Positions 30,731 through 38,243 of a DNA stretch of 38,243 nucleotides are shown piece by piece. The DNA is from Mariprofundaceae bacterium (GTDB lineage Bacteria > Pseudomonadota > Zetaproteobacteria > Mariprofundales > Mariprofundaceae). The stretch's first letter is position 1. Every line of letters begins with the position of its first letter. The stretch spans positions 1-38,243 of the forward strand of contig WFOK01000019.1 of assembly GCA_015488115.1 (NCBI GenBank), in the 5' to 3' direction. Below the pieces are notes generated by a model. That model was not told the origin of the DNA and searched no databases. It saw only the letters and a list, made by a program, of their open reading frames with translations. The position numbers and the translations under genes were made by a program.

Positions 30731-30978
30731 CGCACGGGAAGGCGGCAATGAGCAGCCGCCGAAGGCGTCAACAGGCGCAACATCATCCACGCCATCGGCC
30801 AGGCATGCCAAACGAGGTCCAAGAGGTCGATCGGGCGCACAAGCCCACCTCGCATGAGCACGCGCATCTTTTCGATCAGATGCGGCTCGCCCGAAAACGG
30901 CGACAAGCCGAGCAGAACAGCTGCGACGACCAGCAGGCCCCAGGATGGGCAGTGCAGCCAGCCAAGCAGTCTCGTCAT
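30727..30978 (-). CDS. Small hypothetical membrane protein (often labelled RND transporter)
   Basis: The 83-residue product has a helix LLVVAAVLLGLSPF, a conserved stretch EPHLIEKMRVLMRG and RPIDLLDLVWHAWP, and a second hydrophobic segment. I recall proteins of this type with the SPF...EPHL.EK...RPID.FDL pattern in many proteobacteria, often called RND transporter without support. The start ATG 30978 overlaps the TrxC stop by one base (TGATG). Its stop overlaps the next start (ATGA). The role is unknown. Confidence 0.75.
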   Translation of the reverse strand: MTRLLGWLHCPSWGLLVVAAVLLGLSPFSGEPHLIEKMRVLMRGGLVRPIDLLDLVWHAWPMAWMMLRLLTPSAAAHCRLPVR

Positions 30979-31424
30979 CAGTCCAGCCATGGACGAATTT
31001 TACTCAACAAGGCATCAAGGGGCATGGCGCCAAGCAGGGTCTCAACAACGCGGCCTTGTCGGAACAGCATCATCGTCGGCACCGAGCGCACGGAGAAGCG
31101 GTCGGCCAAGTGAGGGTGAACATCGATATTGACCTTGACGACCATCAGGCGGCCGGGCCATTGCTTCGCCAGGCGCTCCAGCACGGGCCCAAGCATGCGA
31201 CATGGCCCGCACCAGGGAGCCCAGAAGTCGACAAGCACGGGCAATGGCGCATGCATGACCACAGCATCGAAATCGCGCCCGCCAAGCTCGAGCGGTTCAT
31301 CCGGAAACACCTTGCTGCGGCACTTGCCGCAAACGATCTTATGTCCGTCGCCAGCCGCCAGCCGATCGGCAGGCAAGCGATTGACGGCACCGCAGGCCGG
31401 ACACGGATACAACACCGCTTCCAT
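30978..31424 (-). CDS. trxC: Thioredoxin 2 (TrxC) with N-terminal zinc motif
   Basis: The 148-residue protein has a zinc-binding head with C8-x2-C11 and C32-x2-C35, then a thioredoxin fold with active site W71-C72-G73-P74-C75 and the cis-proline motif SVPTMMLF. This is the TrxC plan. Thioredoxins reduce disulfides and also persulfides, which would suit the adjacent sqr and rhodanese genes. The start ATG 31424 lies 4 bases after the osmC stop with AAGGA upstream. In E. coli trxC is under OxyR control; here it follows sqr. Confidence 0.95.
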   Translation of the reverse strand: MEAVLYPCPACGAVNRLPADRLAAGDGHKIVCGKCRSKVFPDEPLELGGRDFDAVVMHAPLPVLVDFWAPWCGPCRMLGPVLERLAKQWPGRLMVVKVNIDVHPHLADRFSVRSVPTMMLFRQGRVVETLLGAMPLDALLSKIRPWLD

Positions 31425-31428
31425 CACG

Positions 31429-31827
31429 CTATTCCTTCGCTTCCCCCAGCTTCACCGATACATGCGGCTGGGCATGGAGCGTGGCATGGATCAGGCAGCG
31501 ATTGGCCACCCGTTCGATGGCCTTGCGCCTGTTCTCCGGCAAGCCGGGCAGCGTCACGATGACATCGAACGATTCGATGCACTTCGGCTCGCCGCCCACC
31601 TTCCAATCACACTCCACGCGCAACCCCGTCGTATCAATACCGGCCTGCTGGCAGTAACGGACCACATAGAATCCCACACACGATGCCAGTGAGGCCGCCA
31701 TCAGCTCCGGCGGCGTCATGCCGGCGTCACTGCCCCAGTTCTCCCTGGGCTGGTCGATGGTGATCGAATGGCCGCGGCTCGTGGCCGTGAAACGGACTCC
31801 GTCTTCCCATTGTACCTGCATGCGCAT
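31429..31827 (-). CDS. OsmC/Ohr family protein
   Basis: The 132-residue protein has the OsmC signature GMTPPELMAASLASCVGFYVV and a second conserved cysteine at NRCLIHATLH. Family members reduce organic peroxides through these cysteines, and some act on persulfides. Both cysteines are present. The start ATG 31827 overlaps the sqr stop (TGATG). Its place between SQR and thioredoxin suggests a role with low-molecular-weight persulfides, which is inference. Other OsmC-like proteins have unknown roles. Confidence 0.9.
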   Translation of the reverse strand: MRMQVQWEDGVRFTATSRGHSITIDQPRENWGSDAGMTPPELMAASLASCVGFYVVRYCQQAGIDTTGLRVECDWKVGGEPKCIESFDVIVTLPGLPENRRKAIERVANRCLIHATLHAQPHVSVKLGEAKE

Positions 31828-33104
31828 CACTTCAACCTCTCGATGCCCAGGCGCTTGAGCAAGGCCTTCTCATAAAACGGCTCGGAGACGCCCGTCTTCA
31901 TCTTCCTCATGAAATATTTCTCGAAGAACACCTTGGCCGTGTGCACCCATTTGCCGCCCTTGGCCCAGGTGATGTTGCGCGGCGGAATCTGCGGATACGC
32001 GACAAACGCCACGCCCCTGTCGCCAAGATCAGCCAAGCAAATCGCTCCCCAAGTGCCGCATTTCTCCGGCTTTTCGCCCTTGATGTCGTGAATGATGTTG
32101 TGCACTGCTGCGGTCGTCATCGATTCGATCATGAAGCCTGTTTTTGGCGTGCCTACCGGCACCGGCGTGCTTTCCACCGGAGGAATCGCGCAAATCACGC
32201 CGGTCGAGTAGATGTTCGGAAATTTCGGATTCTGCTGGTATTCGTTGATCACAGCAAACCCCATCGGGTTGGCCAGCCCCTCGCAATTGGCAACCGCGGG
32301 AATGCCGCGGAATGGCGGCATCAGCATGGCAAACTTGTGTTCGAGCGAACCACTGGCCACAACCTCGCCGTTCCGGTCGACTTCCTCATAGTCCAGGCTG
32401 TGCTCATGCACGGCGATGGTCTTGCAATTCGTGATAAACTTGATGTCCCGCTTGCGCAGTTCGGATTCAAGCAGAAGCTTCGAGTCCTCCACCCCACCGA
32501 GACCAAGGTGACCGATGTACGGCTCCGCAGTAATGAAGGTCATCGGTACCTTGTCACGGATCTTGCGCCGACGCAACTCGGTATCCACGATCATCGCGAA
32601 CTCATAGGCCGGTCCGAAGCAGGAAACGCCCTGCACGGCCCCGATCACGATTGGCCCCGGATTTTTGCAAAACTCCTCGAATGCATGATAGGCCTTCTCG
32701 GCATGATCAACATGGCAGATCGAGTGCGTATGCCCTTCCGGCCCCAGACCCGGAACCAGCTCAAAAGCCAGCCTTGGCCCCGTCGCAACAATCAAATAAT
32801 CATAATCCAGAAACTGACCATTGGCCAGACGCAGCCTGTTCTCGTCTGCAAGAATTTCATCAACGCCGGATGCGACAAAGTTGATACCCTTCTTGTTCAG
32901 GAACGGCGCACACGGGAAACTGATTTCCTCGCGATCACGCCACCCCACGGCAACCCAGGGGTTCGACGGCGTGAAATGGAAATAATCGGTGTTCGACACC
33001 ACGGTAACCTCATGCTGACCGCCCAGCTTCTTCAGCGCATCTTTCATTTCATAAGCTGCCGGCATCCCACCGATGCCCGCTCCCATGATCACGACATGTG
33101 CCAT
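31827..33104 (-). CDS. sqr: Sulfide:quinone oxidoreductase
   Basis: SQR oxidises sulfide at the membrane surface, passing electrons to quinone through FAD. The 425-residue protein has the FAD motif GAGIGG (8-13) and the three catalytic cysteines C130 (HSIC), C162 (GVSCFGPAYE) and C356 (GTWGAICLADLGDRG). The equivalents in Acidithiobacillus ferrooxidans SQR are C128, C160 and C356. The C-terminal FFEKYFMRKMKTGVSEPFYEK is a membrane-associated segment like that of the same enzyme. AAGGAG lies before ATG 33104. It is the first gene of a seven-gene overlapping run and has its own structured upstream region (33186-33299) with an FNR-like site. Confidence 0.96.
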   Translation of the reverse strand: MAHVVIMGAGIGGMPAAYEMKDALKKLGGQHEVTVVSNTDYFHFTPSNPWVAVGWRDREEISFPCAPFLNKKGINFVASGVDEILADENRLRLANGQFLDYDYLIVATGPRLAFELVPGLGPEGHTHSICHVDHAEKAYHAFEEFCKNPGPIVIGAVQGVSCFGPAYEFAMIVDTELRRRKIRDKVPMTFITAEPYIGHLGLGGVEDSKLLLESELRKRDIKFITNCKTIAVHEHSLDYEEVDRNGEVVASGSLEHKFAMLMPPFRGIPAVANCEGLANPMGFAVINEYQQNPKFPNIYSTGVICAIPPVESTPVPVGTPKTGFMIESMTTAAVHNIIHDIKGEKPEKCGTWGAICLADLGDRGVAFVAYPQIPPRNITWAKGGKWVHTAKVFFEKYFMRKMKTGVSEPFYEKALLKRLGIERLK

Positions 33105-33316: not shown

Positions 33317-33520
33317 TCAGCCCTTCTTGCAGGTGTTGATGCCGAGCAACGGATACAGCGGACAAAACCGCATCAACGCCGTCAGCACCAACACACCCCC
33401 GGCGATGCCCGCGACATAGTTCCATGGTGAAACCAGACCGCCGACAAATACCCAAGCAATCAAAGCCAAGCCGGCAACCAACCGGACCGCCCGATCCACA
33501 CCTCCGACATTTGCTTTCAT
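33317..33520 (-). CDS. DUF2892 small membrane protein
   Basis: The 67-residue protein has two membrane helices and the DUF2892 pattern: MKANVGGVDRAVRLVAGLAL at the start and MRFCPLYPLLGINTC at the end. The same domain makes the membrane part of YgaP, a rhodanese fused to a membrane anchor. GGAGGAGG lies before the start. Two cysteines (FCP and NTC) are conserved in relatives and may carry sulfane sulfur or bind metal, though this is inference. It follows the Crp/Fnr gene with 88 bases between, containing palindromes. Confidence 0.88.
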   Translation of the reverse strand: MKANVGGVDRAVRLVAGLALIAWVFVGGLVSPWNYVAGIAGGVLVLTALMRFCPLYPLLGINTCKKG

Positions 33521-33563
33521 GACTTCCTCCTCCTTCTGCAGGATATGAGCATTTTATTGACTT

Positions 33564-33592
33564 CTAATATATTAGTCTGTAACAAAGTCACA
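33564..33592. promoter_or_regulatory. Palindromes before the DUF2892 gene
   Basis: CTAATATATTAG (33564-33575) is a perfect 12-bp palindrome. TGTAAC-AAA-GTCACA (33578-33592) is an imperfect dyad with Crp-like TGTGA character on the minus strand. Both lie 44-72 bases before the DUF2892 start in an AT-rich stretch. A -10-like TAAAAT is seen on the minus strand at 33551-33556. They are likely operators or promoter parts, with the regulator unproven. Confidence 0.45.
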
Positions 33593-33608: not shown

Positions 33609-34256
33609 TCAGCCCAGATCCCTCAGCGCCGAAGATTCGAGCAATTCAATCCGCCCCCGGCCAAGCGCAATCCAGCCTCGCCGTTCGAAGTCTTTCAACA
33701 GACGGCTGACCACCTCCCGTGCCGTGCCCAACTCGACAGCCAATGCGTAATGAGTGGTTTGCACAACCTTCCCCTGTTCCTCACCAAGCCGGATCAGAAC
33801 CTTGGCCAAGCGATGGTCCATGCGACCAAAGGCGATATCCTCGATCAACCCAAGCAGGTCAGCTACCCGGTTGCCGACCTCCCCAAGGACTTGCCTCCGG
33901 AACCCTTCCGAACGCACCAAATGATGCTCAAAACTGGCCGGAGGCAACATGTACAGCTCAGCATCGGATTCAACGACGCCATCCGCCGGATAATGCCGCC
34001 CGCCCATCAGGCATAATGTGGTCAACATACAGCCTTGCCCTTCTTCGACGCGATACAGCAGAATCTCGCGCCCTTCCGGGTCCATCTTGGACACCCGAAT
34101 GCGCCCGGATCGCACAACGACATAGCCAAGAGAGCGATCCCCCTCGCGAAACACGACATCCCCCGCCTGCAGGTGCAGCACGCGGGCGCGTTGCATGACC
34201 TCCCGAAACCCGTCGTCCTGCAACACGCCATGCCAAACGACGTCGATGCTGCGCAA
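33609..34256 (-). CDS. Crp/Fnr-family regulator with a Cys-x5-Cys pair
   Basis: The 215-residue protein has an N-terminal cyclic-nucleotide-like beta-roll and a C-terminal HTH. The recognition helix contains E181, S184 and R185, the FNR residues that read TTGAT. The N-terminal iron-sulfur cysteines of FNR are absent. The only cysteines are C76 and C82, in GQGCMLTTLCLMGG, where cNMP-binding Crp proteins keep other residues. They may form a thiol switch for sulfur or redox signals, which is inference. The start is TTG 34256, 3 bases after the DUF302 stop, with only a weak ribosome site. Its place inside the sulfur cluster suggests control of it. Confidence 0.85.
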   Translation of the reverse strand: MRSIDVVWHGVLQDDGFREVMQRARVLHLQAGDVVFREGDRSLGYVVVRSGRIRVSKMDPEGREILLYRVEEGQGCMLTTLCLMGGRHYPADGVVESDAELYMLPPASFEHHLVRSEGFRRQVLGEVGNRVADLLGLIEDIAFGRMDHRLAKVLIRLGEEQGKVVQTTHYALAVELGTAREVVSRLLKDFERRGWIALGRGRIELLESSALRDLG

Positions 34257-34259
34257 CGC

Positions 34260-34661
34260 TCAGCTCGCAACGGCCTCCAGCGCCTGCTGCAGCAAGGAGC
34301 CAACCTCATCAGCAACCGAATCCAGATCCCTGTTGCGCACCACGGACAGCATCGCAGCCGGATCAATCGCCGACACCTTGGTCCGTCCGTCGGCATCCTG
34401 GTACACAATCACATTACATGGCAGCAACAGACCTAGCTCCTCCTCCATCTCCAATGCCCGGGAGGCAATCTTGGGATTGCAGGCCCCGAGAATCACATAG
34501 GGCCGCCGTTCAAGCCCCAACTTTTTCTTCAAGGTTTCGGCGACATCAATGCGCGTGAGCACGCCAAAACCGACCGACTTCAGCGCATCGGTCACCGCCT
34601 GCTCTGCTCTCGCGACATCGCCATCATAGATCACCGTCATTCCGTATGCATGCCGTTCCAT
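34260..34661 (-). CDS. DUF302 family protein
   Basis: The 133-residue product has the DUF302 pattern: AYGMTVIYDGDVARAEQAVTDALKSVGFGVLTRIDVAETLKKKLG across residues 5-49, the YVILGACNPKIASRALEMEEELGLLLPCNVIVYQ region and a short helical end. The two cysteines in ACNP and PCNV are typical. Its function is not known, though the family often occurs beside sulfur-oxidation and metal genes. AAGGAGG lies 6 bases before ATG 34661, which overlaps the rhodanese stop (TGATG). Confidence 0.9.
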   Translation of the reverse strand: MERHAYGMTVIYDGDVARAEQAVTDALKSVGFGVLTRIDVAETLKKKLGLERRPYVILGACNPKIASRALEMEEELGLLLPCNVIVYQDADGRTKVSAIDPAAMLSVVRNRDLDSVADEVGSLLQQALEAVAS

Positions 34662-34999
34662 CAACAACCTCCTTGAGCCACCGGATAGCCTGCCTTTGCC
34701 CAGGCCAAGGTTCCGCCTTCGACATTGACGAGATTGGCTCGGCCGTGCTGCCGCATCAAGTAATCGCAGGCCTGGGCCGAGCGTCCCCCGGAATGGCAGA
34801 TCAGAAATACGGTACCATTCTCGGGGATTTCCGCAACGCGCGCAGGCAGACTCGCCAATGGCATCAGCATGGCGCCGGGCACATGCGCCTGCGCAAACTC
34901 CTCGGGCGTGCGCACGTCAATCAGCGTCAGCTCACGCCCGTTTTCCTGCGCCGTCAGCCAGCGCGGGTACAATTCATTCACGTTAACCGATGACCACAT
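34661..34999 (-). CDS. Cytosolic rhodanese
   Basis: The 112-residue single-domain rhodanese has DVRTPEEF, AHVPGAMLMPL and the active cysteine C68 in ICHSGGRS. It moves sulfane sulfur from thiosulfate or persulfide to an acceptor such as thioredoxin. It has no signal peptide, so it is cytosolic. The start at 34999 follows the stop of the exported rhodanese by one base. An in-frame longer reading (to 35134) would overlap that gene and is not favoured. Its end overlaps the DUF302 start. Confidence 0.92.
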   Translation of the reverse strand: MWSSVNVNELYPRWLTAQENGRELTLIDVRTPEEFAQAHVPGAMLMPLASLPARVAEIPENGTVFLICHSGGRSAQACDYLMRQHGRANLVNVEGGTLAWAKAGYPVAQGGC

Positions 35000-35000
35000 A

Positions 35001-35414
35001 TCAATGCACCACCGGATAGCCCGCAGCTTTCCAGGCTTCGATGCCGCCAAGCATGTTCTCAACACGGTCAAAGCCATGGGTCGCCAGCATCTTTGCCGCA
35101 CGCGCCGAACGCCGCCCGGAGCGACAATAAACATAAATCTGCCTGTCCTTGGGCAAGGCCTTCAAATGCCGTTCCAAATCCTGCACCGGGATCAGGCGCG
35201 CGCCCTCGATATGCCCGGCCGCGAACTCCTGCGGCGTCCGCACATCGAGCACAATGAACGGAATCGGCGAACGCTCACCCTGTTTCCAATGCTGATACAC
35301 ATGTTGCACCGGCACATTCTCATAACCTTCTGCTGTCTGCTCGCCGATGCCGCACGCCCCTGCTGCAACAGGCAAGGCAAAAAGCATCCACAGTCCAACC
35401 ATCCAACGTTTCAT
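35001..35414 (-). CDS. Exported rhodanese
   Basis: The 137-residue protein has a signal peptide (MKRWMVGLW, core, VAAGAC). A cysteine (C21) at the cleavage region could make it a lipoprotein, though the box AGAC is not ideal. The rhodanese domain has VLDVRTPQEF and active C97 in YCRSGRRSA. It would work in the periplasm or at the outer face of the inner membrane. GGAG lies upstream of ATG 35414. It is the middle one of three consecutive rhodaneses, which differ in their location. Confidence 0.9.
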   Translation of the reverse strand: MKRWMVGLWMLFALPVAAGACGIGEQTAEGYENVPVQHVYQHWKQGERSPIPFIVLDVRTPQEFAAGHIEGARLIPVQDLERHLKALPKDRQIYVYCRSGRRSARAAKMLATHGFDRVENMLGGIEAWKAAGYPVVH

Positions 35415-35447
35415 GTTCCATGCTCCTTTGTCATTCTTATCCATGGT

Positions 35448-35858
35448 CTACCTCCCTGTCTTGACCGGCAGGCCAGCCGCCCGCCATGCAGCCATGCCAC
35501 CGGAAAAGTTGTAGACCGGTGCAATCCCATGCCTTGCCAGTACTGTCGCAGCCTGCGCCGAACGCTGGCCAGAGGCGCAGATCACAACGACGGGCACATC
35601 ACGCGGGATCGCATCAAGCCGGCGGGAAATCTCGGCCAGCGGTATATGCTCCGCCTGTGGCGCATGGCCGCCACACCATTCGGCCTCGGTACGCACATCA
35701 ATCAGCGCATGCGGACGGTTGCGCATGCCCAGATAGTCGGTGACACTGATGTTCCTGACACCGGCCAGCCTCGGCGCAATCATGCGTTGCCATAGCACCC
35801 AGCCCACGAGCAACGCGAGAAACAGATAAACCGCATTTTGTTGCATCCATACTTGCAT
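35448..35858 (-). CDS. Membrane-anchored rhodanese
   Basis: The 136-residue protein starts with a membrane helix (about residues 8-27) and continues with a rhodanese domain, with IDVRTEAEWCGGH and active C94 in ICASGQRSA. An uncleaved anchor is likely, since no cleavage site is evident. GGAG lies 7 bases before ATG 35858. It precedes the exported rhodanese by 33 bases and follows a DUF2892 gene by 97. Together they resemble YgaP split into separate rhodanese and membrane genes. Confidence 0.9.
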   Translation of the reverse strand: MQVWMQQNAVYLFLALLVGWVLWQRMIAPRLAGVRNISVTDYLGMRNRPHALIDVRTEAEWCGGHAPQAEHIPLAEISRRLDAIPRDVPVVVICASGQRSAQAATVLARHGIAPVYNFSGGMAAWRAAGLPVKTGR

Positions 35859-35955: not shown

Positions 35956-36177
35956 TCATGCCCTGTCGCAACAGGGCTTCATCCCGAGCTTCTTCAGAAT
36001 CTGCTCCATCAGGCACCAGCGGGTGATGCCGGACTGGAACAGGTTTGCACCGACAAACAGCGTAAACCATAGCCACGTCGGCCGGGACAGATCCACGCCG
36101 TTGTAGATCGAAGCCAGAATAACCGACAGCATGATAAAGCTTCCTGCAATAATCCGAATGGCTCGTTGTATCGTCAT
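35956..36177 (-). CDS. DUF2892 small membrane protein (second copy)
   Basis: The 73-residue protein has IQRAIRIIAGSFIMLSVILA and WFTLFVGANLFQSGITRWCLMEQILKKLGMKPC, the DUF2892 layout with its conserved cysteines and two membrane helices. The start at 36177 overlaps the RND stop (ATGA), and AAGGAG is upstream. It ends with PCCDRA, an extra cysteine pair. It differs clearly from the copy at 33317-33520, so it is not a recent duplicate. Confidence 0.9.
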   Translation of the reverse strand: MTIQRAIRIIAGSFIMLSVILASIYNGVDLSRPTWLWFTLFVGANLFQSGITRWCLMEQILKKLGMKPCCDRA

Positions 36178-38243
36178 GAGTTTGCTCCTTGGTTTGGGGT
36201 TTCGCGCGGTGGCAGCGGACAACTGTCTGCATCCAGAGGCTTGTCCTTCTGCCACAGGTAATAAATCAGCGGAATGATGAACAGAGTCAGCATCGTCGAG
36301 GCCAGGGTTCCGAAGGCCATGGACACCCCCAGACCTCCGAATACCGGATCGCTGATCATGATCGAGGTACCCGCGATGACGGCCAGCGCGGTCAGCAGAA
36401 TCGGCCGGGCACGCACCGCTCCGGCCTCCAGCACGGCGGCCTTCACATCATGTCCCTGGCGGCGGTAATCGAGGATGAAATCGATCAGCAGCGTGGAATT
36501 GCGCACGACAATGCCGGCCAGGGCAATCATGCCAATCATCGAAGTTGCCGTGAACGGTTGACCGGTGATCATGTGACCGGGGAAAATGCCGATCATCGTC
36601 AGGGCCGTCGGCGCCATGACCAGCATTGGCAGCAAAAACTGGCCGTAATACGCCACCATGAGCAGATAAATCAGCACCAGGGCCACGATGAAGGCTGCCC
36701 CCAAATCGCGGAACACGTCCAGCGTCAGGCGCATTTCTCCATCCCAGAGCAAATGATAGCCAAACGTGTCCTCGGGTTCCGTTTCAGTGAAGCGCATGCC
36801 ACCCGTTTTCAGTCGCACGCCGGGAAGGACTTCCTGACCGTCCAGCTTCCCGTCCATTTCCAGCAGAGGATAGACCTGCGAGCCCTTCTCTGGCTCCCCT
36901 GTCACATAGGTCACCAGATGACCGTCCTTGCTGAAAATCGGCTTCGGCGCCATGGTTTTCTCGACCGTTGCTATGGCTGACAGCGGAATCGGTCCATGCG
37001 GCGAGCTCAGGTAAATCCGATCCAAGTCCTCCACATGCGCCCGCAAGGCACGCGGCAGTTGCACATGCAAGCGCACAGAATGACGCTCGTGGGCGACATG
37101 CACTGCGCCAAAATTGTAGCCCTGCAAAAAGTCCCGCAACACGGTGTCGACCTGGCTTGTTTGAATGCCCAGGCGCGAAGCCTTCTCCTTGTTCACCCGG
37201 ATATCGTATTGCACCTGATCATCGCCGACCGAATCATCGACATCGGTGACATCATAGGTCTCGGCAAAGAGCTCGCGCACCTTGCCGGCGATGCGCCGCT
37301 GCACCTCGTAGTCTGGTCCGTAAATCTCGGCCAGCAAGGTCGCGCGCACCGGTGGACCCGGTGGATCCTCCACCAGCTTGATCGATGCCCGCGGATGGGC
37401 CTGCATCACCGGCTGCAGCATCTTGCGCAATTGCAGCACAATCTCGGCGGAGCGAATATCCCGCTTGTGCTTGTCCAGCAGGTTCACCCTGATCTCGCCC
37501 AAATGGGGGCCTTCCCTGAACAGGGCGGCTCCGCGCAGCATGCCGTTGAAATCAATCGGGCCCGCCCGACCGATAAACACCTCATAATCCTTGACCATCG
37601 GGTGCCGTCTCAACACATCGCCAACTTCGCGGGCAACCCGGTCCGTTTCCTCCAGCGTCGAGCCTTCGGGAAGATCGATGGTGATGTTGAATGTGTTCTG
37701 GTTGCCCTTGGGCAACATCTTCAACTCCACTGCGCCCGGGGTCAGCGGTCCATTGATGCCGGACGGACGAATGAACTGCCAGGCTGGCTCCCACATGGCA
37801 GCCAGAAACAAGACGACCACGACAGCCCAGAAAATCCGGCGCGTTCTCCTGCTTTCGATCAAGGGCACGGCCAAACGCATGTATGTCCTGTGGACCCAAT
37901 CCTTCGGTTCCGCGTCCCGTTCTTCCAGCGTCGGCGTCGTTACCCTGCACGGCATCCAGCGCTGGGCGATCCATGGCGTAAAGGCATAGGCAATGATGAG
38001 CGAAGCTGCCATGGCCAACGGCGCATTGAATGGAATCGGCCCCATGTAAGGGCCCATCATGCCCGTGACGAAGGCCATCGGGATGAACGCCAGAATCACG
38101 GCGATCGTCGCCACAATCGTCGGTTTCCCGGTCTCGTTGGTGGCCTGAATGATCAGGCGCGCCTTGTCGGACAGCTTGGTGACGCCGCGATGCAGATGAC
38201 GGTGAATGTTTTCAATCACAACAATGGCGTCATCCACAAGCAG
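36174..38243 (-). CDS. RND-family efflux permease, C-terminal part
   Basis: The gene enters from the right edge, so about 689 residues of roughly 1,070 expected are visible. The first visible part, LLVDDAIVVIENIHRH, is the RND signature in the middle of the first membrane half. Later MIGMIALAGIVVRNSTLLIDF shows the second-half signature, and the periplasmic domain lies between. The end of the protein is after the last helix (LTLFIIPLIYYLWQKD). It is closest to HAE-type or generic RND pumps. Its stop overlaps the DUF2892 start (ATGA), which joins it to the sulfur cluster. The substrate is unknown. Confidence 0.9.
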   Translation of the reverse strand: MLVDDAIVVIENIHRHLHRGVTKLSDKARLIIQATNETGKPTIVATIAVILAFIPMAFVTGMMGPYMGPIPFNAPLAMAASLIIAYAFTPWIAQRWMPCRVTTPTLEERDAEPKDWVHRTYMRLAVPLIESRRTRRIFWAVVVVLFLAAMWEPAWQFIRPSGINGPLTPGAVELKMLPKGNQNTFNITIDLPEGSTLEETDRVAREVGDVLRRHPMVKDYEVFIGRAGPIDFNGMLRGAALFREGPHLGEIRVNLLDKHKRDIRSAEIVLQLRKMLQPVMQAHPRASIKLVEDPPGPPVRATLLAEIYGPDYEVQRRIAGKVRELFAETYDVTDVDDSVGDDQVQYDIRVNKEKASRLGIQTSQVDTVLRDFLQGYNFGAVHVAHERHSVRLHVQLPRALRAHVEDLDRIYLSSPHGPIPLSAIATVEKTMAPKPIFSKDGHLVTYVTGEPEKGSQVYPLLEMDGKLDGQEVLPGVRLKTGGMRFTETEPEDTFGYHLLWDGEMRLTLDVFRDLGAAFIVALVLIYLLMVAYYGQFLLPMLVMAPTALTMIGIFPGHMITGQPFTATSMIGMIALAGIVVRNSTLLIDFILDYRRQGHDVKAAVLEAGAVRARPILLTALAVIAGTSIMISDPVFGGLGVSMAFGTLASTMLTLFIIPLIYYLWQKDKPLDADSCPLPPRETPNQGANS

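Follow-up and report, generated by a model that had tools for sequence, protein, structure and literature searches.

A Crp/Fnr-family regulator with a conserved effector-domain cysteine in a sulfur gene cluster of a Mariprofundaceae bacterium: a candidate activator of sulfide-handling genes

In the Crp/Fnr superfamily, the operator of FNR is TTGAT-N4-ATCAA. The persulfide sensors known so far have ArsR, CsoR, MarR or sigma-54 activator folds. The ordinary Crp of A. baumannii has been reported to be persulfidated (PMC7315123), and PgRsp of Porphyromonas gingivalis, a Crp/Fnr protein with a Cys76 that was modelled on the structure 3DV8 and described as a separate family, has been reported as a heme-binding oxidative-stress regulator, with no sulfur regulon reported (PMC6955866). 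PgRsp is compared here by its published description. The DNA analysed in this work, referred to below as the window, is a stretch of 38,243 nt from a Mariprofundaceae bacterium (contig WFOK01000019.1 of assembly GCA_015488115.1), which encodes a Crp/Fnr-family protein among sulfur genes. With a probability of about 55%, we consider that this protein is a local activator of a regulon for sulfide and sulfane-sulfur handling, responding to reactive sulfur via Cys76, as judged from sequence comparison.

The regulator and its neighbourhood

The regulator gene starts with a TTG codon 3 nt past the stop codon of a DUF302 gene. The features of the neighbourhood, with the basis of each assignment, are as follows.

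30978..31427, minus strand: thioredoxin, TrxC-like, predicted in the same operon (NF008229, above cut-off)
31429..31830, minus strand: OsmC-like protein, predicted in the same operon (domain match)
31827..33104, minus strand: sulfide:quinone reductase (SQR)-like flavoprotein, type III SQR-like, predicted target (match to NF049943 at E 1e-27, under the curated cut-off)
33317..33520, minus strand: DUF2892/YgaP-like transmembrane protein, predicted first target (Pfam E 2e-24; neighbourhood conservation)
33609..34256, minus strand: Crp/Fnr-family regulator, 215 aa (ORF, Pfam domains, AlphaFold2 model)
34260..34667, minus strand: DUF302 protein, encoded immediately before the regulator (domain match)
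34661..35134, minus strand: rhodanese (domain match)
35001..35444, minus strand: rhodanese with a signal-peptide-like start, whose orthologues elsewhere have the operator upstream (domain match and site search)
35448..35858, minus strand: rhodanese with an N-terminal membrane helix (domain match)
35956..36255, minus strand: second DUF2892/YgaP-like transmembrane protein (domain match)
36174..38237, minus strand: C-terminal portion of an RND efflux pump, truncated where the contig ends and continued on contig C24 (ORF and 151-bp overlap)

The regulator lies inside a sulfur cluster, where the initial annotation had placed it, with the DUF302, three rhodanese, two DUF2892, SQR-like, OsmC and TrxC genes all on the minus strand. 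The presence of two YgaP-like membrane proteins and three separate rhodaneses in one operon looks as if the domains of YgaP had been split and multiplied.

The cNMP_binding (residues 27-111) and HTH_Crp_2 (149-214) domains of the regulator both scored above the Pfam cut-offs, and the protein has the build of the superfamily, namely an N-terminal cNMP-binding beta-roll, a long dimer helix and a C-terminal Crp-type HTH. No specific NCBIfam model was found for it, every equivalog match being far under its cut-off, and the curated cAMP-CRP model NF008732 was not matched (score 24.7 versus a cut-off of 266). Cys76 and Cys82 are the only cysteines in the 215 residues, and the protein does not have the [4Fe-4S] set of FNR, which consists of three N-terminal cluster cysteines and one in the beta-roll. 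In the AlphaFold2 model (mean pLDDT 90.6), a short helix in the beta-roll domain comprises residues 77-85; Cys76 directly precedes this helix and Cys82 lies within it. The initial annotation, which had described a Crp/Fnr regulator with a Cys76-x5-Cys82 pair in the effector domain and without iron-sulfur cysteines, is borne out in all these respects. Its further claim, that the DNA-reading residues of FNR are kept, holds for Glu181, Ser184 and Arg185, but Arg180 is CRP-type and the half-sites are GTGA, not TTGA. The recognition helix reads A179-R180-E181-V182-V183-S184-R185, in which R180, E181 and R185 are CRP-type contacts and S184 is an FNR-type contact; all four residues are nearly invariant across the clade, and R180-E181-x-x-S184-R185 is a mixture of the CRP and FNR types.

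Candidate operator, promoter and regulon

A candidate operator, TGTGACTTTGTTACA at 33592-33578, received the top score across all 38 kb of the window. The predicted elements ahead of the DUF2892 gene are listed below.

33578..33592, minus strand: candidate operator TGTGAC-TTT-GTTACA, with the dyad GTGAY-N3-RTYAC (family motif; best-scoring site in the window)
33574..33579, minus strand: putative -35 CAGACT, which forms part of the dyad's conserved NGA(C) tail (inferred from sequence and position tally)
33551..33556, minus strand: putative -10 TAAAAT, 17 bp after the -35 (recurrent hexamer distance)

Such a dyad, which is specific to the clade, was found just past the regulator stop codon and ahead of a DUF2892 gene in 60 of 84 homologous loci, as GTGAY-N3-RTYAC in 51 and as the N4 form in 9, where shuffled sequences lead one to expect 0.22 and 0.14, respectively, or about 0.4 together. 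The usual centre is one base shorter than in CRP and FNR sites. Loci with a 4-bp centre (GTGAC-N4-GTCAC) downstream of the regulator include L013, L064, L080, L266, L280 and L283. A TTGA-type dyad after the regulator gene was found in none of the 84 loci. Simple FNR-type regulation was ruled out, there being neither cluster cysteines nor TTGA sites.

In 25 of 70 loci a -10-like hexamer starts at position 37, the count running from the site's first base, and the best 4-nt window for such a hexamer takes in 32 of the 70, whereas the maximum in 200 shuffles was 16. The centre of the dyad falls near -41 relative to the putative promoter of the DUF2892 gene, and near -41 is the class II activator position of CRP/FNR proteins. 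From this geometry we infer that the regulator activates this promoter, which is predicted to serve the DUF2892-SQR-OsmC-TrxC genes in the window. The putative promoter, whose -35 is poor, obtained no score in a generic promoter scan, as is expected of an activator-dependent promoter of this kind. A perfect 12-bp palindrome, CTAATATATTAG (33564-33575, minus strand), is situated between the putative -35 and -10, and TA-rich elements resembling it (CTAATATAAT, TTCGCTAATA) are found ahead of the ArsR genes as well as in the Crp-type promoters of relatives; these elements are possibly an ArsR operator.

In 66 of 86 loci a DUF2892 gene is found no more than 5.5 kb from the regulator, mostly right after it, and at locus L074 the site stands ahead of DUF2892-SQR though an insert puts the regulator about 2.7 kb away. 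At the Mariprofundus-type loci L004 to L006, neither DUF2892 nor a site was found beside the regulator. Exact operator matches in the genomes of ten relatives numbered 28, versus 4 for a reversed control pattern; in a second genome set the excess was smaller. Many of the matches lay inside coding regions. Many exact matches in conserved coding sequences (e.g. an inositol-monophosphatase-like gene; L152, L161, L192) were set aside as due to chance or codon-driven. A broad regulon in the bacterium's own genome was likewise rejected; the site looks local there, because the only other exact match is within a coding region.

Intergenic exact sites precede DUF2892 genes, even where these are unlinked to the regulator (L115, L186), and, in relatives, the gene for a periplasmic rhodanese orthologous to the 35001-35444 protein of the window. 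One such site each was found ahead of cydA (L116), a multicopper-oxidase-like gene (L157) and a small lipoprotein-like gene (L137). Sulfide has been reported to induce cydAB in A. baumannii, E. coli and M. tuberculosis (PMC7315123). When a matrix trained only on post-regulator sites was applied upstream of the best rhodanese match in each genome, strong sites, mostly unlinked to the regulator, were detected in 11 of the 16 genomes that have the regulator and in none of the 9 that lack it (Fisher p = 0.001, uncorrected for genome relatedness; one of the nine has a divergent copy only).

On annotated plasmids of Rhodobacterales and Hyphomicrobiales (Ruegeria, Thioclava, Paracoccus, Pseudosulfitobacter and Chelativorans), the regulator gene comes first in an operon of the order DUF2892 - YeeE/YedE - DUF6691 - MBL hydrolase - TIGR01244/SQR - SulP, some genes of which are absent in some records. 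The MBL protein has a match of 1e-109 to the dioxygenase portion of the Blh model, which is below the full-length cut-off, and no ArsR is annotated in or beside these operons. This operon has the content of a bigR operon, with the Crp/Fnr gene standing in the place of BigR/SqrR. Elsewhere, the surroundings of the Azospirillum lipoferum homologue are different or plain, and the Thiothrix homologue is accompanied by DUF2892 only. Across these comparisons, the operator stands ahead of DUF2892(-SQR), rhodanese and persulfide-dioxygenase operons.

Since the neighbourhood recurs in several bacterial classes and the operator precedes rhodanese genes only where the regulator exists, the link of the regulator to sulfur metabolism is strongly supported. 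That it controls sulfur genes is well supported by these comparisons; control of sulfide/persulfide detoxification genes, a property of persulfide sensors, is indicated by operator and neighbourhood alone.

Cysteine conservation and candidate signals

Homologues were collected by a GTDB contig scan, by searches of relatives and from 399 Pseudomonadota genomes, 86 of which contain a clade member at E < 1e-22; the clade spans the zeta-, alpha-, beta- and gammaproteobacteria. Of 112 homologues sharing under 90% identity, 111 have Cys76, a Thermus outgroup being the single exception, and every Pseudomonadota member read from a search not seeded on the Cys76 peptide keeps it. Cys82 is found in 94 (about 15% lack it) and a third cysteine, Cys42, in 76; position 42 is Ser in the window regulator and Cys in a 76%-identical congener (L036). 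Eight homologues without Cys82 are also without Cys42 and have Cys76 alone of the three (e.g. L012, L018, L260, L272, L277 and L289); most of them retain the DUF2892 partner and several retain the operator site.

Family-wide conservation, as in thiol-based persulfide sensors, is thus seen for Cys76 and, for the most part, for Cys82. The invariant of the family is Cys76 alone and not the Cys76/Cys82 pair, and the two-cysteine thiol switch suggested by the initial annotation, if made specifically of these two residues, is less well supported. Two divergent members of about 30% identity, L083 (G005) and L084 (G048), keep GETC at position 76 and are without Cys82, and the L084 regulator gene adjoins a gene resembling the cytochrome-c-peroxidase-like ORF of the window; they are possibly a sister clade with another target.

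An invariant cysteine in this place could also belong to a heme- or redox-based sensor of the CooA or PgRsp kind, with Cys76 as a heme ligand or as a general thiol oxidation switch, which would govern the same regulon and time sulfide oxidation by reporting O2, NO, CO or redox state. PgRsp, for which 3DV8 served as the modelling template, binds heme and its authors probed Cys76 (PMC6955866); 3DV8 is the best PDB match of our regulator in sequence, the heme ligand of RrCooA is Cys75, and the sites before cydA and the multicopper-oxidase-like gene would fit oxygen or redox control. However, the single substitutions C76A, M78A and H85A left the heme spectrum of PgRsp unaltered (PMC6955866), the regulator has no His close to Cys76 where CooA has His77 and no N-terminal Pro, and its putative targets are sulfur genes far more often than respiratory genes. 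We regard this explanation as unlikely.

The intact cNMP_binding fold would also suit a small ligand held non-covalently in the cNMP-type pocket, such as a thiol of low molecular weight or its persulfide, with the cysteines tuning the pocket. PrfA and Vfr are activated by glutathione (PMC7315123), and in members with Cys76 alone no intramolecular bridge to positions 42 or 82 is possible. Such a ligand would nevertheless leave unexplained why Cys76 is invariant when much of the pocket helix is variable, and we hold it to be very improbable.

A second candidate sensor is encoded at the head of the operon. The right end of the window (36174-38243) overlaps contig C24 of the same genome (L302, G000) by exactly 151 identical bp; this contig continues the cut RND gene upstream and carries a gene for an ArsR protein of 100 aa, then a TolC-like gene, so that a YgaV/BigR-type ArsR gene and a TolC-like gene come before the RND pump. 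The order ArsR-TolC-RND leading to the Crp gene is found also in L300, L304 and L074, and an ArsR gene lies ahead of the Crp gene in four relatives. The best PDB matches of the ArsR protein are YgaV and BigR, and its cysteines, LC29H and YC95P, which are kept in orthologues, match the two sensing cysteines of YgaV, ILC31ML and VYC98P (PMC9774250). No CsoR/CstR was found in the genome as an alternative sensor. Because the ArsR keeps both sensing cysteines, sulfur could be sensed here by the ArsR protein, by the Crp protein or by both, and the role of sulfur sensor need not fall to the Crp protein. There are probably two sulfur regulators at work here.

It may be, in consequence, that the ArsR is the sulfur sensor and that the Crp protein, binding DNA constitutively or according to its amount, is a downstream amplifier in which Cys76 is kept for folding. 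The position of an ArsR gene with conserved sensing cysteines at the head of the operon that includes the Crp gene, the AT-rich element between the -35 and -10 of the Crp-type promoter with its counterpart upstream of the ArsR genes, and the dispensability of Cys82 in 15% of homologues all agree with this. Against it, the Crp gene stands by itself at the head of the dioxygenase operon in Rhodobacterales, with no adjoining ArsR annotated, and a purely structural role would be unusual for an invariant effector-pocket cysteine amid variable residues; we think this account quite unlikely.

Direct persulfide sensing by Cys76 is plausible. In the reading that we prefer, activation by the Crp protein in response to reactive sulfur, a dimer would bind the operator centred near -41 and recruit RNA polymerase by class II activation. 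Cys76, which caps the N-terminus of the short helix occupying the place of the phosphate-binding cassette of CRP, would be persulfidated or else bridged through (poly)sulfide to Cys82 (in other members possibly Cys42), and this modification would shift the beta-roll into the DNA-binding form. DUF2892, SQR, OsmC and thioredoxin would then be made when sulfide is oxidised to persulfide. The regulator gene itself probably belongs to a transcript that starts upstream and is governed by the YgaV/BigR-type ArsR at the operon head, which would give a two-step control.

No paper describing the clade as a sulfur regulator or sensor was found in the open-access literature, and it has apparently been undescribed until now. 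We give even chances to the wider proposal that this widespread alpha-, beta-, gamma- and zetaproteobacterial clade, with its invariant effector-domain cysteine and odd-spaced GTGAY-N3-RTYAC operator, is an as yet unrecognised system for sensing persulfide, taking the place of BigR/SqrR and FisR or adding to them before sulfide oxidation genes. If this is true, the Crp/Fnr proteins would add a fold to the persulfide sensors, as a sigma-70-type activator; sulfide control would be explained in many bacteria without an annotated ArsR in their sulfide operons, the predicted operator would let regulons be read from genomes, and the unannotated solved structure 3DV8 would be a starting point for the mechanism.

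Comparison with known systems

The best PDB sequence match of the regulator is 3DV8 (E 1.4e-23), the putative Crp/Fnr protein EUBREC_1222 of Eubacterium rectale, which is third by fold and has the same C-x5-C (CLLSASCIM versus CMLTTLCLM in the window); it comes from a Firmicute, and its recognition segment is HREVITR versus AREVVSR in the window regulator. The regulator may belong with a 3DV8/PgRsp-like group: it matches 3DV8 in sequence and fold and has a cysteine at about position 76, PgRsp being compared through its published description. CooA has the heme ligands His77/Cys75 and an N-terminal Pro2, and our regulator has a Cys in the corresponding region without the His or the Pro. E. coli FNR is alike in fold and in the Glu, Ser and Arg of the recognition helix, but the regulator is without the N-terminal cluster cysteines and has the extra CRP-type Arg180, and its operator has GTGA half-sites, usually with a 3-bp centre, in place of TTGAT-N4-ATCAA.

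Among sulfur regulators, FisR, a sigma-54 sulfide activator, likewise activates SQR/PDO operons in response to sulfur, but it is an unrelated AAA+ protein and the promoter described here is sigma-70-like. The ArsR proteins BigR, SqrR and YgaV head or accompany the same kind of operon, with DUF2892/YgaP, rhodanese, YeeE/YedE, Blh dioxygenase and SQR. They are repressors of a different fold whose two cysteines form a tetrasulfide or disulfide bridge, whereas the site geometry of the Crp protein is that expected for an activator.
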